A stretch of 39,948 nt of DNA. It comes from a virus. The position numbers were made by a program, and so were the translations under genes. This document shows, one piece after another, positions 11,152 through 39,948 of the stretch; position 1 is the first letter of the stretch, and every line of letters starts with the position of its first letter. Location of the stretch: IMG/VR virus record IMGVR_UViG_3300030061_002367, positions 1 through 39,948 of that record. One strand, written 5' to 3'. The notes under the pieces were generated by a model. It did no database searches, was not told where the DNA came from, and was given only the letters and a program-made list of their open reading frames with translations.

Positions 11152-11545
11152 GTGCTGATGAGACAGGATTAATAACTAAAATATTACCAGATATCAAAGG
11201 ATAAACTGTTGATCCGCTACCAACTTCATGTTTAAGTAAAACATCATAAACGTATCTACCCTCTGATGTTGCTCTTGTATTAACAGCACCTAATGATATC
11301 TTTAACTTACCATCATAGGCACTAGTAAATCCAACAGTAAACGATGATGTAATACCAAGAGTAGCTCCAACTGCTACACTTTTAGACATAGCGGCCGATC
11401 CACTATAATTTGTTAAATCAAATGCAGCATTTGATGTTGTATTAACAACTAAATTAACTTCAAAATCTGAACCACCATACATGGTTAGGTTCACACCTTT
11501 TGGTACGCCAGCATTAAGATCAAAAGTTACGTTCTTAGATGCCAT
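11147..11545 (-). CDS. Small virion protein, Ig-like beta domain, 132 aa
   Basis: The product looks like a single all-beta domain: alternating hydrophobic residues, Gly/Ser/Thr-rich turns, no cysteines and no helix-forming stretches. The pattern YGGSDFEVNLVV...FDLTNYSGSAAMSKS...GKLKISL...GRYVYDVLLKH...ISGNILVI resembles the N-terminal Ig-like domains of tail-tip and baseplate proteins (BppU-like), an impression rather than a tested match. It overlaps the upstream 60-aa gene by 11 nt and precedes gp13. In T4 this position is occupied by genes 11, 12 and wac, so a small structural or receptor-side protein fits. No exact homologue is recognised. Confidence 0.8.
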   Translation of the reverse strand: MASKNVTFDLNAGVPKGVNLTMYGGSDFEVNLVVNTTSNAAFDLTNYSGSAAMSKSVAVGATLGITSSFTVGFTSAYDGKLKISLGAVNTRATSEGRYVYDVLLKHEVGSGSTVYPLISGNILVINPVSSAP

Positions 11546-17900: not shown

Positions 17901-19502
17901 AATAAAATCTCCCTCAACTTCATAGACCGATACTGCATTTGAGTTTGAAACTGCATCCTTAAGGAATGCAGTTGCACCACTCCTACTACCTTGTACAAAA
18001 GTAGGAACAGAGAGACTTGTTGCTTGATTGAGAACTAAATCTACTGTTGTTTGAACGTCAAACAACGAAAGGTTCCACTCATTAAGGGTATCATTGGATG
18101 TGCTATAAGATCCAGATTCTAATCTATAATCATAAACTCTAGCTACACCAATTTCTCTGCCTGCTGGTGCAGGAGTACCACCAGTTCCATCTGTAGTAAG
18201 ACCAACTCTTTGATCCCTTAAACTAAGAATATATGTATTACCAACTCCAACATCAGGTGATCTCCAAGTTCTATTAACTCTTAAAGTTGGACCAGTATTA
18301 TAAATTATTGATTGATCTTCAATAGTTGCAGTTGTTCTTGGCTTAGGAACATCAATAAAAGTTACACTACTAATATCAATATCATAACCCCGCACAAATG
18401 CTCTACCTGGAGAGAATTTATACAACATGAGGTCATCAGATGGAGTTTGTCCTCCAAAGGTTAATTGACCTGCGCTATATATTCCTCTATTTCCAACTCC
18501 ATTGTTAAGTGATTCATGTACAGATAAATCAAATGCCTTCACATAATAATCACCAGATTCTGCATATGTTCTACTTGCAAGAATATCTGTCCAGTCTTTA
18601 TATCCTACTCCTCCACCAAGATCTCCTCTTTTGGTTTGAGATTTGATATTTCCTGATTCAATAATAGATAATTCAACAAATTGATCATCATTATAGTCAG
18701 TTAGTGGTTTTTTAAATAAACTTAAAGAAATCTTAAGTCTATCTGCACCTGGTGCAGAGTAATTATTAAATCCTTGAGAATTATCATTTAATGCGTCATC
18801 TTCATCAGCATTTACAATTTCTTCGTTTACAAATAAACCAACTCTATAATTAGGATTATTTCCATACTGATCAAGAATTAAAGTTTCTGTATTGACATTG
18901 ACAAAATGCCCATGAACAAAATATACTCCCTCCTGAATTTGAAAAGCAGATCCAGTAGCAGATGCTTCATCAGGGATTGTTGTTGCAAAAGGAGCTCCAA
19001 TAGCAATGGTAGTATTCCCGAGAAGACCAGAAGAGATAATCTGATTACAGGTTAAATTTTCCCCATCGGAGAAAGTTTGAGTTGCATTATTTGCGGTACT
19101 TGAATTTAAATAGTTAATATAAAGAGTAAGATTTCCTCTCTCAGAATTTTCTGGAAGAAGAACTTTATCTACAACAGCACTTACTCCAGAAGATTCTCCA
19201 GTAATTTTAGTTCCAACTAATTGTTCAGCATATGCTGCTACAGGAACTCCTAGATAAGTATTTTGTAATTGAACACAGTAATATAATTGAGTATATCCTG
19301 TATTACCAGGAATTACTTTTGCACCTTCTTTGAAAAAATGCTGCCCAAATTTTTCAATCTGATTTTGAAGAATCGATTGTAAAGTAGTTAATTCTCTTGC
19401 CTGAACTGGATATCCAGGTTTAAATAACACCTTATGGTAGTCATCTACCGGATCAAAGTCATCAAAATATGGTGCTACATTAAGGTTCGTTTGCTGTGGC
19501 AT
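11925..19502 (-). CDS. Giant DUF4815-type baseplate/tail-fibre-network protein, 2525 aa
   Basis: The N-terminus YFDDFDPVDDYHKVLFKPGY, followed by QARELTTLQSILQNQIEKFG, is the signature of the DUF4815 family of phage structural proteins. A central region (about residues 1140-1260) has a coiled stretch (KKLENRISSLEYYTSL). Around residues 1330-1480 lie a Trp-rich segment, a poly-Thr run (RTTTTTT) and SRDLIPFMRSRNVEF with FFDGEQV, a motif common in large tail proteins. From about 1697 (GWYDPLAQSFLVEEE) comes a beta-sandwich-like domain. The remainder contains Gly-rich GNGYQTGDVV and EEIIEYSSV...SRGSN modules shared with gp7, gp15 and gp14. The gene occupies the place of T4 genes 9 and 10, so it may be the gp9/gp10-equivalent linking the baseplate to fibres; that equivalence is inferred from position only. 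The start lies 6 nt after the gp8 stop. Confidence 0.88.
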   Translation of the reverse strand: MPQQTNLNVAPYFDDFDPVDDYHKVLFKPGYPVQARELTTLQSILQNQIEKFGQHFFKEGAKVIPGNTGYTQLYYCVQLQNTYLGVPVAAYAEQLVGTKITGESSGVSAVVDKVLLPENSERGNLTLYINYLNSSTANNATQTFSDGENLTCNQIISSGLLGNTTIAIGAPFATTIPDEASATGSAFQIQEGVYFVHGHFVNVNTETLILDQYGNNPNYRVGLFVNEEIVNADEDDALNDNSQGFNNYSAPGADRLKISLSLFKKPLTDYNDDQFVELSIIESGNIKSQTKRGDLGGGVGYKDWTDILASRTYAESGDYYVKAFDLSVHESLNNGVGNRGIYSAGQLTFGGQTPSDDLMLYKFSPGRAFVRGYDIDISSVTFIDVPKPRTTATIEDQSIIYNTGPTLRVNRTWRSPDVGVGNTYILSLRDQRVGLTTDGTGGTPAPAGREIGVARVYDYRLESGSYSTSNDTLNEWNLSLFDVQTTVDLVLNQATSLSVPTFVQGSRSGATAFLKDAVSNSNAVSVYEVEGDFIPNEPLVFNGINDGRIATAVTSYALSDVKSVFGSNNRLTGVSTFAADVVQSPIIRVGVATISPASSGVSTIRSTSNALPGLFKVGDLVEYTNTSLTLTDVSLARVSNVGIDSIGITAVTNVPGIVFGDLPTVSLNVSDLKLVTTKLDPSSDSTLYTRLPRTDIESVDFTNASLTIRKVLSVDIASGQLSSNISAGPNETFLPFDEERYALIRSDGTTEALSADKLTIASGGTALNIFGLGSNDTGASLIVSLKKVKPTSKIKIKNRVKSIIVDKSNSASSGIGSTTLNDGLVYGGGNYPYGTRVQDATISLNVPDVIDVHGVFESADTNNATAPKISLININSTSTTTGELTVGESFIGQTSGANGILAETLTSAQISYISKNDSKFVEGETVIFQETAIQAIVSVITSDSFDISENYKFRTGQEDTFYDQGRIIRKENKSAPAKKLKIYYKSASFDSTDNGDLTTVESYKNFDYSTEIKGINGDANTDILDIRPRVSEYTVAEGARSPLEFFGRSFNADGNSASNALASDETILTTFSHYLGRIDRVFLDKRGKFQILYGTPSEIPQPPNPIDNALEVATVTLPPYLYNVSQASLRFLEHKRYQMKDIKKLENRISSLEYYTSLSLLEANTANLFVPDGEGLNRFKSGFFVDNFTGFNAQETSAPIKNSIDRAHKEIRPRHYTNSIDLIFGPVVNVDPTADLNFAVVEGNNIRKANDVITLDYSEVEYINQPFATRTESVTPFLISFWQGTMELNPASDTWVDTVRIEPKVIDVEGDYASQVALLEQTEGLDPQTGFAPIVWNSWETNWTGFEFNDTTTRRTTVSDGGTRGVGGWINGGSGVARLVRTTTTTTVEDTIRETIRTDEQSRTGSQLFVHEQFDRESVGDRTVSRDLIPFMRSRNVEFISKKMKPLTRMHAFFDGEQVDKYCVPKLLEISMQSGTFQVGETVIGRMSRPGLGPVTRQLIGEEAKITFRVAQSNHREGEYNAPDQVFREDPYNGTSLSAVYSATSTILNIDTFSLSNEAQGEYSGRIAEEMILKGSTSGAEAVITGHRLVSDLAANLIGSFFIPNPNSVNHPRFETGTKTFTLTNDEDNDPDVATTIAEEAFAASGTLETVQENIISVRNARIERRQEFQERNVNTNLGTQVVGSQVVGQTTSEVTIGWYDPLAQSFLVEEESGVFVTKCDIYFRTKDDMDIPCVFQLRTMQNGFPTQKILPFSEIVLDPADIETSDDGSVSTTIQFKAPVFLEGGSEYAIALASNSTKYSVYISRIGENDLLSDAFISNQPYLGSLFKSQNASTWEASQWEDLKFVMYRANFLESGTIDFYSPKLSEGNRQIPVLQPDCLEVSSRTIRVGLGTTVQDSGYQLGNTFFQGASHVNKTNATGTLIGVAGTIPRTALAISNAGIGLTPTDGSHTFTGVNLVTLSGSGRGAQATVAVTNGQVTSATITGSGGNGYQTGDVVGINTIGAGSVGRNVRLTVSGIGKTSELILDNVQGDFTVSGPQLNYFNSVGIAQTLNNDLPAAPGGNVQISTINEITDGLHIKVNHQNHGMYFTDNRVIVSGVLPDVKPTKLTSEYSSNSTSGLAVESATAFSNFENVSVGSTNRGYLLIGEEIIEYSSVDGNTIGGSISRGSNPITYSTGTPVYKYELGGVCLHRINKTHNLNDVSIGSSITFDSYNIKLDMSEKFNVNNDDRSDDVLGFPKLYMGITGSTGGQNVKATQNMPFEIITPIIQNVTTRGTSISAEVRTVTGQSLSGNEIAYLDAGFEPIVPNTPNYLSSTRLICSKVNEDAKLTNIEGAKSMQMRVNMVTTDSYISPVIDGQRVSTILSSNRIDSQITDIANDARVKGILTDPTACQYISKEIRLENAATSLKVIFDAHINDFCDARVLYAISNKDGFDPIFIPFPGYKNLDSKGQIIDIANNNGESDSFVSKTPTYGFDSSSIEFKEHTFSIDELPSFKVYRIKILLTGTNQTYVPRAKNLRVIALA

Positions 19503-38636: not shown

Positions 38637-38834
38637 CTAACAACTGTGCTCTGTGTTTGTTGGAAGACCATAGACTTCCTCATATGTTAAATCCTCAAGT
38701 TGATAATCAGTCTGCATAAGCCCAACCATCCCCTTGAGGGTATTCCATGTTTCACTAAATTGTTGTTCTGTTAGATTATTATATAAACACTCTTCCTTTG
38801 CATAGATGTGATAAACTTTACTTCGACTATCCAT
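38637..38834 (-). CDS. Small conserved hypothetical protein, 65 aa
   Basis: The ATG at 38834 has an excellent ribosome site, GGAGGT, eight bases upstream (38843-38848). The product begins MDSRSKVYHIYAKEECLYNN, followed by LTEQQFSETWNTLKGMV, and has an acidic C-terminal half. I associate this with a family of short cyanophage early proteins, function unknown. It is followed within 40 nt by the promoter of the glycosyltransferase gene. Its own transcript probably has a long leader starting near 39000. Confidence 0.8.
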   Translation of the reverse strand: MDSRSKVYHIYAKEECLYNNLTEQQFSETWNTLKGMVGLMQTDYQLEDLTYEEVYGLPTNTEHSC

Positions 38835-38880: not shown

Positions 38881-39004
38881 TTGCTTTTGATATCTATAGG
38901 TCGATTTGTCACCTCTGTAGGTTAGGGTAGTTAGACGTTTTTATCACGCCCCCCATAACGCAACAACGCCCCCATCAAAACACTGTCATTTCACTGATAC
39001 TCTC

Positions 39005-39053: not shown

Positions 39054-39329
39054 TCAGACACCGAAGTAACAATCAGAATTGATCTCAACGACGTTTACTT
39101 TAGGGTCTCTGTAGTTAACACCGTCAGGGGTCGATAAGTCATTGAGATCACACCCTTCGAGTGCATCTACAAAGTCTTCGTAACTACCGGCAGCACGTGC
39201 TAAGTCATAAAGACCCTCATCATTACCGATCCAGAGTGCAACATTCCAGGTCTCATAGTTCGTCCAACCGTTGTACGTTGTATCAGTGAGATTTGTCTGG
39301 AAAGTTGTGGTCATAGAGGTTCGAGTCAT
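39054..39329 (-). CDS. DUF7249-like small protein, 91 aa
   Basis: The characteristic phrase is YNGWTNYETWNVALWIGNDE followed by GLYDLAR, which I recall from small phage and bacterial proteins of unknown function (DUF7249-like). It starts around residue 19. The rest is acidic (DFVDALEGCDLNDLSTPDG), ending DCYFGV. A second in-frame ATG at 39314 (MTTTFQTN) is equally possible because neither has a convincing ribosome site. Short early host-takeover proteins of this type are common in T4-like phages, but no role can be assigned. Confidence 0.78.
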   Translation of the reverse strand: MTRTSMTTTFQTNLTDTTYNGWTNYETWNVALWIGNDEGLYDLARAAGSYEDFVDALEGCDLNDLSTPDGVNYRDPKVNVVEINSDCYFGV

Positions 39330-39366
39330 GCTTACACTATAGGGACACTTTACGCGACCCCCCTTT

Positions 39367-39393
39367 GGTATACCCAGAGAGAACGACTGTCAA
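39367..39393 (-). promoter_or_regulatory. Possible early promoter (TTGACA with weak, short-spaced -10)
   Basis: A consensus -35 box TTGACA (39388-39393) on the minus strand, but the best -10 candidate TATACC (39367-39372) is only 15 nt away. It would serve the 91-aa gene. A TATAGT nearer to the gene lacks a matching -35. Confidence 0.35.
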
Positions 39394-39406
39394 ATAGCAC
39401 CCATAA

Positions 39407-39583
39407 TTACCAACTGACGGGATTACTCAGATCCTCCACGTAGCTATCAATCACCTGCTCATTTCCCTCAAGTTCAAAGAGGTTCTCCCAATCAATGTTG
39501 TGTGGGTTGAAGTCTTCCATCACCTCTAGATCCAGGGTGATTCTATAACGTTGCTTCTGTACTTGACTGATAGCGACTGACAT
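39407..39583 (-). CDS. Small hypothetical protein, 58 aa
   Basis: The start at ATG 39583 (MSVAISQVQKQRYRITLDLE) is preferred over a longer version because GGAG stands at the right distance (CGGAGCAGATTC before ATG) and the perfect promoter just upstream would begin its transcript inside the longer frame. The product is acidic, with a beta-like N-terminal half (QRYRITLDLEV) and helical end. I do not recognise it; it is typical in size and position of early T4-like phage proteins. Confidence 0.72.
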   Translation of the reverse strand: MSVAISQVQKQRYRITLDLEVMEDFNPHNIDWENLFELEGNEQVIDSYVEDLSNPVSW

Positions 39584-39611: not shown

Positions 39612-39640
39612 ATTATAGAATGAATGAGAGATATTGTCAA
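39612..39640 (-). promoter_or_regulatory. Consensus early promoter TTGACA-17-TATAAT
   Basis: Both boxes match the sigma70 consensus exactly on the minus strand (-35 at 39635-39640, -10 at 39612-39617) with the ideal 17-nt spacer. It drives the 58-aa gene, whose ATG is about 22 nt downstream of the expected start site. Confidence 0.9.
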
Positions 39641-39715: not shown

Positions 39716-39744
39716 TTGACATTTGCGCGGAGTGGTGATAGACT
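39716..39744 (+). promoter_or_regulatory. Plus-strand promoter TTGACA-17-TAGACT pointing into the DnaA-box cluster
   Basis: -35 TTGACA (39716-39721), 17-nt spacer, -10 TAGACT (39739-39744). The two boxes and spacing are identical to the minus-strand promoter at 39005-39033. It is the only convincing plus-strand promoter in the window; no gene follows it before the right edge. Confidence 0.6.
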
Positions 39745-39782
39745 GCTCGCTAAGATCACAAGACCTGAGTACATTAAAACAC

Positions 39783-39849
39783 ATACTTTTCCACAGAAAT
39801 ACACCTTTATACACAGATAAATGATACTTTTCCACAGACTTGTGGAGAA
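39783..39849. other. Cluster of four DnaA-box-like 9-mers
   Basis: TTTTCCACA at 39787-39795 and 39828-39836, TTATACACA at 39807-39815, and TTCTCCACA on the opposite strand at 39841-39849. The first two are embedded in a 15-bp direct repeat, ATACTTTTCCACAGA (39783-39797 and 39824-39838). TTTTCCACA is the form known for cyanobacterial DnaA boxes, and TTATACACA fits the E. coli consensus TTATNCACA. Starts are 20 and 21 bp apart, about two helix turns; the last pair is an inverted repeat with a 4-bp centre. Confidence 0.6.
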
Positions 39850-39928
39850 CAGTATAAACAACGCATATACATTAATAAAACCTTTTTTAATATAAAAAAA
39901 GCATAATCTTTATGTATATGAGCACAAA

Positions 39929-39946
39929 AGGGGCGTTTTTGCCCCT
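39929..39946 (-). terminator. Terminator-like hairpin at the right edge
   Basis: AGGGGC (39929-39934) pairs with GCCCCT (39941-39946) around a six-base loop. Read on the minus strand the stem is followed by TTTTG, the usual form of an intrinsic terminator for a gene to the right of the window. Read on the plus strand it could also end a transcript from the promoter at 39716; any T-run would lie beyond the window. Confidence 0.6.
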
Positions 39947-39948
39947 CT

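Follow-up and report, generated by a model that had tools for sequence, protein, structure and literature searches.

Does a T4-like cyanophage enlist the replication initiator of its host? T4 is the model of replication independent of the host initiator, and the question is raised by the right end of a 39,948-nucleotide fragment of a T4-like cyanophage genome (the whole of which we refer to as the window), where 9-mers resembling DnaA boxes are clustered. The initial annotation read this cluster as a possible host-DnaA-dependent origin, and its description of the sequence is accurate. Three same-strand 9-mers start at 39787, 39807 and 39828, with 20 bp from the first to the second and 21 bp from the second to the third. 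Box 1 (39787..39795, + strand) and box 3 (39828..39836, + strand) are exact copies of the cyanobacterial box TTTTCCACA, each enclosed in one copy of an exact 15-bp direct repeat, ATACTTTTCCACAGA (39783-39797 and 39824-39838), while box 2 (39807..39815, + strand), TTATACACA, matches the general DnaA consensus TTWTNCACA. The fourth 9-mer, TTCTCCACA (39841..39849, − strand), is an inverted near-box with one mismatch, and the palindrome that it was said to complete with box 3 is thus present but imperfect. The very A/T-rich DNA reported next to the array is a block of 76 bp (39850..39925, 77.6% A+T) with runs such as CCTTTTTTAATATAAAAAAAG, a candidate DNA unwinding element. The number of boxes is ordinary (2 matches to TTWTCCACA against 1.74 expected from shuffles), unlike their clustering, which is unusual; since two boxes in 40 kb are an ordinary number, the case for the array rests on clustering and on comparison with other phages, of which the comparison is decisive.

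Most cyanobacteria are reported to have TTTTCCACA as their DnaA box, and DnaA binding was demonstrated in vitro for Cyanothece (PMC4674748); the boxes of the window fit the consensus given there for the initiator in this group of hosts. DnaA domain IV is encoded by Synechococcus WH7803, RCC307 and WH5701. Beside dnaN in these three genomes only degenerate boxes can be recognized and no exact one (TTTTCCACG and TTTTCCCCA in WH7803, where an exact cluster is absent), and oriC may lie elsewhere. Exact copies of TTTTCCACA lie close together only once in the WH7803 chromosome, as an inverted pair with a distance of 44 bp (1819368-1819420; L508); dnaN is located at about 1 kb in this chromosome, and dnaA at about 698 kb.

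Box clusters are found in 6 of 15 cyanophage isolates, always 2.1 to 8.8 kb upstream of gene 25, the corresponding distance in the window being 3.0 kb. They lie at 19231-19264 in S-PM2, 52553-52597 in Syn9, 48835-48874 in S-SM1 and 58194-58216 in P-TIM68; in S-SKS1 one TTTTCCACA (151414) is followed by two TTATCCACA (151435 and 151456) in exact 21-bp steps; and in S-SM2, with which the right end of the window is collinear (an alignment covering 83% of the final 2 kb, with 78% identity), two TTTTCCACA 21 bp apart are accompanied by the same inverted TTCTCCACA as in the window. Exact TTTTCCACA occurs just three times in the S-SM2 genome (190,789 bp), twice at this site, and an A+T content of 80% or more over 75 bp is reached at no more than seven places, one of which abuts these boxes. 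When nine genomes were scanned whole or nearly so (P-HM1 up to 180,000 of 181,044 bp), in five of them (S-PM2, Syn9, S-SM1, P-TIM68 and S-SM2) the best box cluster fell 2-8 kb upstream of gene 25; with 150 permuted 9-mers and the same nine genomes, this was the case in no genome for 148 of the permuted motifs and in one genome for the other two. There is no box cluster at this place in P-SSM4 and P-HM1, nor any in the site lists of the outgroups T4 and pelagiphage HTVC008M.

A wider sample is provided by the viral contigs of IMG/VR. An earlier scan for two boxes was too permissive, and was replaced with a three-box pattern (two direct boxes plus an inverted half-box), for which the same pattern reversed served as control: there were at least 120 matches to the pattern, versus 3 to its reverse. 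Among the matches listed, 94 of 120 array loci have neighbours from the 54-64 kb segment of S-SM2, and the array is upstream of gp25 in all 56 loci that contain gp25. Since the scan selected on the boxes and not on their location, the shared genome place constitutes independent evidence. The genomes with an array carry 2 to 5 boxes each, at one fixed place, and the conservation in related cyanophages that the initial annotation had named as its own check is observed for boxes and spacing alike. One 284-kb IMG/VR record, G015 (locus L172), has two gp25, two copies of a glycosyltransferase gene and two box arrays, duplications from which we conclude that it is probably two joined phage genomes.

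The distances between direct boxes peak at 11-12, 20-22, 31-34, 42 and 52-53 bp, that is, at whole helix turns, such that the boxes are arranged on the same face of the DNA, as in DnaA-box origins; the helical phasing noticed in the window extends to its relatives. Variation among the boxes is also structured. Among the one-mismatch neighbours found in the clusters, 30 of 43 changes fall on positions 1-3 (background about 27%) and the CACA core is spared; the commonest variant, TTATCCACA, serves as one or more of the array boxes in L249, L271, L303 and S-SKS1. This degeneracy is the one predicted by TTWTNCACA, and in this respect the variation is DnaA-like. The possibility that the array is a chance cluster of AT-rich words, which the mere number of boxes in the window would allow, is practically negligible, as it is refuted by the reversed pattern, by the permuted motifs and by the synteny.

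The boxes fill one slot of a longer conserved element, which in the window spans roughly 210 bp and consists of a sigma70 promoter, a leader, the box slot and the AT-rich block. The promoter (TTGACA-17-TAGACT, 39716..39744, + strand; 10 of 12 consensus matches, with a TG extension) is directed into the array and is antisense to all genes nearby; it is conserved in S-SM2, Bellamy and SynMITS9220M01, as well as in more distant phages. Between promoter and boxes lies a conserved leader, GCTAAGATCACAAGACCTGAGTACATTAAA (39749..39779, + strand), which was recognized with an nhmmer promoter-leader profile. The weakest 50-mer near the array is that at 39866-39915, inside the AT-rich block (−50.7 kcal/mol versus a window mean of −61.9). 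The window ends with a GC hairpin followed by TTTT (39926..39948, − strand), which was read from the sequence and falls under the threshold of the terminator scan; it is probably a terminator that screens the element from leftward early transcription, and similar hairpins are present in several relatives. On the other side, a perfect sigma70 promoter (39612..39640, − strand; 12 of 12 consensus matches) diverges from the element and serves a small gene at 39407-39583.

Other features of the neighbourhood deserve a separate mention. An early promoter with its 5' leader (TTGACAG...TATACC...AAAGTGTCCCTATAGTG, − strand) recurs before several small early genes, at 39329-39400 in the window and at several places in L003. 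A non-coding sequence of about 30 bp, TTTGTCACCTCTGTAGGTTAGGGTAGTTA (38904-38934 in the window), lies 5' of a small gene on the − strand (38637-38834); it is conserved from S-SM2 to P-SSM2 and P-SSM4, with a single match per genome searched, and its 9-mers were found in 59 of 80 anchored contigs. Many IMG/VR contigs stop 1-2 kb upstream of one and the same gene, at the element or just past it (this window, L241, L253, L258, L261, L265, L276, L284, L305 and L311), and these shared ends suggest strong local diversity or uneven coverage.

How constant the element is, and how constant its boxes are, can be seen in 47 loci that were fetched via a neighbouring protein of 263 aa (the anchor gene). 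The promoter-leader profile matches 34 of the 47, always upstream of the anchor gene and always antisense to it, with zero matches on its other side in the 47 loci. The profile also matches S-CAM9, which was absent from the seed (E = 1.6e-4), and more weakly S-SKS1 (E = 0.025); the match in P-SSM2 is at the right place and is non-significant (E = 0.19). In S-SKS1 (L408, at about 11300-11420), in S-CAM9 (45.1-45.0 kb), in L274 and in L299 there are up to five tandem copies of a unit of the leader (roughly ACAAGACCTGAGCACATTTAA), in the manner of iterons. Box clusters are present in 14 of the 47 anchored loci, 13 of these with the leader, and in L266 the cluster lies outside the slot, about 300 bp away from the leader in the direction of the gene. 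The promoter, leader and AT-rich block of Bellamy and SynMITS9220M01 are found without boxes, and boxes are likewise absent from the core element of S-CAM9, probably of P-SSM2, and of about half of the leader-positive loci. On a tree of the neighbouring gene, the presence of boxes requires 7 to 9 changes, at least four of them forced by well-supported branches. As far as can be judged from these sequences, the boxes come and go and the place remains.

What occupies the slot in the other phages is also of interest. Among 28 leader loci, 14 have at least one DnaA box, 5 have TTCTCAA/TTGAGAA repeats (L246, L266, L267, L274 and L284), 5 have GAATTC-type palindromes like GATAAGAATTCGTATC (L239, L251, L273, L292 and L306), and 4 have none of these. 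Two kinds of content occur together in only one of the 28, an exclusiveness that is descriptive, as both non-DnaA classes were defined by eye on the same loci. These repeats look as if a different protein were used there. Behind the slot, the richest 50-mer after the leader has an A+T fraction of 0.84 versus 0.74 at random positions (p about 1e-13), part of this excess being mere intergenic composition because the random positions include coding DNA, and TTTTTTAAY-like words follow the leader in 17 of 28 loci versus 4.7%. Weak DNA beside the array is clear in the window, S-SM2, S-SKS1, P-TIM68 and G017, and is unexceptional in 4 of 11 cases (S-SM1, G014, G016 and G018).

We also considered whether the promoter is simply that of a gene, and rejected this explanation, since a plausible same-strand gene follows it in only 6 of 31 loci (four GIY-YIG-like ORFs recognized by reading, L298 and S-CAM9). 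Three further ORFs are antisense to early genes and resemble shadows, and no gene-like ORF (80 aa) is found behind the promoter in 22 of 31 elements. The GIY-YIG-like ORFs, identified by reading only, stand directly behind the element on the leader strand in L239, L279, L288 and L296, and also in G014, as if homing endonucleases targeted the site.

The T4-like order of the parts, the T4 replication genes and the usual lack of a gene behind the promoter together point to a transcription-primed origin. In T4, oriF and oriG are sites of about 100 bp, each composed of an A+T-rich unwinding element and a promoter whose transcript, as an R-loop, primes the leading strand (PMC3016281). The cyanophage element resembles oriF (uvsY) and oriG in that it is a compact site with a promoter reading into A+T-rich DNA, and in the T4 replication gene set: the window is itself a fragment, and it is S-SM2, its nearest annotated relative, that encodes gp41, 43, 44, 45, 46, 47, 59, 61 and 62, together with uvsW, uvsX and uvsY. 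It differs from oriF and oriG in its promoter, which has a full TTGACA −35 box and is thus of the sigma70-type early kind and not a MotA-dependent middle-mode promoter, and in the conserved leader and DnaA boxes placed between promoter and AT-rich block; furthermore, the R-loop is here only proposed. T4 oriE combines 12-nt iterons with an early promoter (PMC3016281), and the cyanophage element is similar to it in having repeats by an early promoter at a site that is syntenic in relatives, although the type of repeat varies, with DnaA boxes in many phages and different repeats elsewhere. With cyanobacterial oriC (PMC4674748) it shares the 9-mer TTTTCCACA, the clustering of boxes and, in the window and several relatives, an AT-rich neighbour; in contrast to oriC, it belongs to a phage genome, has no adjacent dnaN or dnaA, contains a built-in promoter, and carries boxes that are optional.

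Considering all this, we regard it as probable on balance that the element is a T4-type replication origin at which host DnaA is recruited as a helper. Since boxes are absent from many relatives, DnaA would be at most optional, and not essential, for the group, and the best reading is that of a T4-type transcription-primed origin with an optional DnaA slot. A T4-type origin to which DnaA was added is more likely than a DnaA origin that replaced the T4 mode. Of the host-DnaA-dependent origin proposed by the initial annotation, the conserved phased boxes by AT-rich DNA are supported, with an origin as the best reading; what is modified is the role of DnaA, the boxes being one interchangeable part of an element built like oriF and oriG. 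The same annotation looked to an inflection of the GC skew near the array; in five relatives analysed over their whole genomes the skew has no minimum at the array, in a measure that is confounded by gene strand bias. In T4, oriA and oriC lie outside the regions of compositional shift (PMC3016281).

We infer origin activity, R-loop priming and DnaA binding at the element, and the sequence of events could be as follows. Host RNA polymerase would begin early transcription at the 39716 promoter on the + strand; the transcript would extend past the boxes as far as the AT-rich block, and by staying hybridised there as an R-loop it may serve as the primer of the leading strand. At the phased boxes, the DnaA of the host, bound to one face of the helix, would help to melt the AT-rich block or to hold it open, and the opened block would give access to the helicase loader gp59, the helicase gp41 and the polymerase gp43 of the phage. 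Later replication would turn recombination-driven, as in T4. More tentatively, and as a possibility short of a probability, the origin may be modular, with a fixed core (promoter, leader and unwinding element) and an initiator slot in which host DnaA boxes alternate with two or more other types of repeat, such that close lytic relatives would change their initiating protein.

The anatomy of the element lends itself to other interpretations, the main rival being a regulatory antisense RNA controlled by DnaA. According to this hypothesis DnaA, bound on the downstream side of the promoter, would regulate a non-coding RNA running antisense into the early genes, or act as a roadblock to it, and no origin would be involved. 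The strong promoter, the conserved leader and the DNA behind them, usually free of ORFs, are what such a unit would look like; DnaA is known to regulate transcription (PMC8203912), S-PM2 makes another antisense RNA, CfrI (PMC2984593), and the promoter is followed by an ORF, GIY-YIG-like or of another kind, in a small number of loci. The hypothesis leaves unexplained the AT-rich block that follows the leader in most relatives, and the element has no match to an Rfam family; we consider it unlikely. The lack of an Rfam match also bears on the suggestion that the palindrome acts in the antisense transcript, as an RNA hairpin or a terminator. Pairing between boxes 3 and 4 is possible, with one G-U, yet S-SKS1, L249 and L271 have direct boxes only, with no intact inverted partner, and the T-runs precede the stem while the A-runs follow it, which is the opposite of the order in a terminator. 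Since arrays made of direct repeats alone exist and the order of the runs is wrong, this interpretation was rejected as highly improbable.

Two further alternatives concern the protein that reads the boxes. They could be sites for another phage or host protein that recognizes the same 9-mer, in which case the element could still be an origin or a regulatory region: in other phages the slot holds TTCTCAA pairs or GAATTC-type palindromes, and the WH7803 region beside dnaN, where oriC was expected, is devoid of exact boxes. This we judge to be quite unlikely, because the 9-mer, the tolerance of T or A at position 3 and the constrained CACA core are those of DnaA (PMC4674748). Alternatively, the boxes, which have the host consensus, could be a decoy that titrates host DnaA and halts host replication, as multiplying phage copies could absorb the protein. 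A decoy could be located anywhere, however, and would need none of the features observed, as there are few boxes per genome, phased, at a fixed place and tied to a promoter, a leader and AT-rich DNA; it appears very unlikely. In the lytic phage T5 the injection stop signal has been described with repeats, palindromes and DnaA boxes (PMC13250531), and DnaA boxes and palindromes are common to it and to the array discussed here. The ends of the T5 genome are fixed, whereas T4-like genomes are circularly permuted, and for this reason a fixed injection stop is not expected in T4-like phages.

The preferred interpretation, a T4-type origin with host DnaA as an optional helper, can be set against what has been reported for this group. 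According to the review PMC2984593, a single theta origin has been predicted for Syn9, a member of the same phage group; this origin may be at the same place as the element. It is the only indication of where replication starts in the very abundant marine relatives of T4, as no mapped start was found in the literature covered. DnaA is mentioned neither in that review nor in the review of T4 replication PMC3016281, and no earlier report of DnaA boxes in T4-like cyanophages, or of a DnaA origin in cyanophages, was found in the open literature.

The element is a precise and conserved candidate that is directly testable, with six positive isolates, including S-PM2 and Syn9, and a sequenced host, WH7803. 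If this reading is correct, the element would give a first indication that host DnaA is borrowed by relatives of T4. Participation of DnaA would tie the replication of the phage to the initiator of the host and, possibly, to the control of that initiator by the cell cycle or light. Finally, the swapping of the slot between relatives would offer a natural series, of a rare kind, in which to follow how replication initiation evolves.
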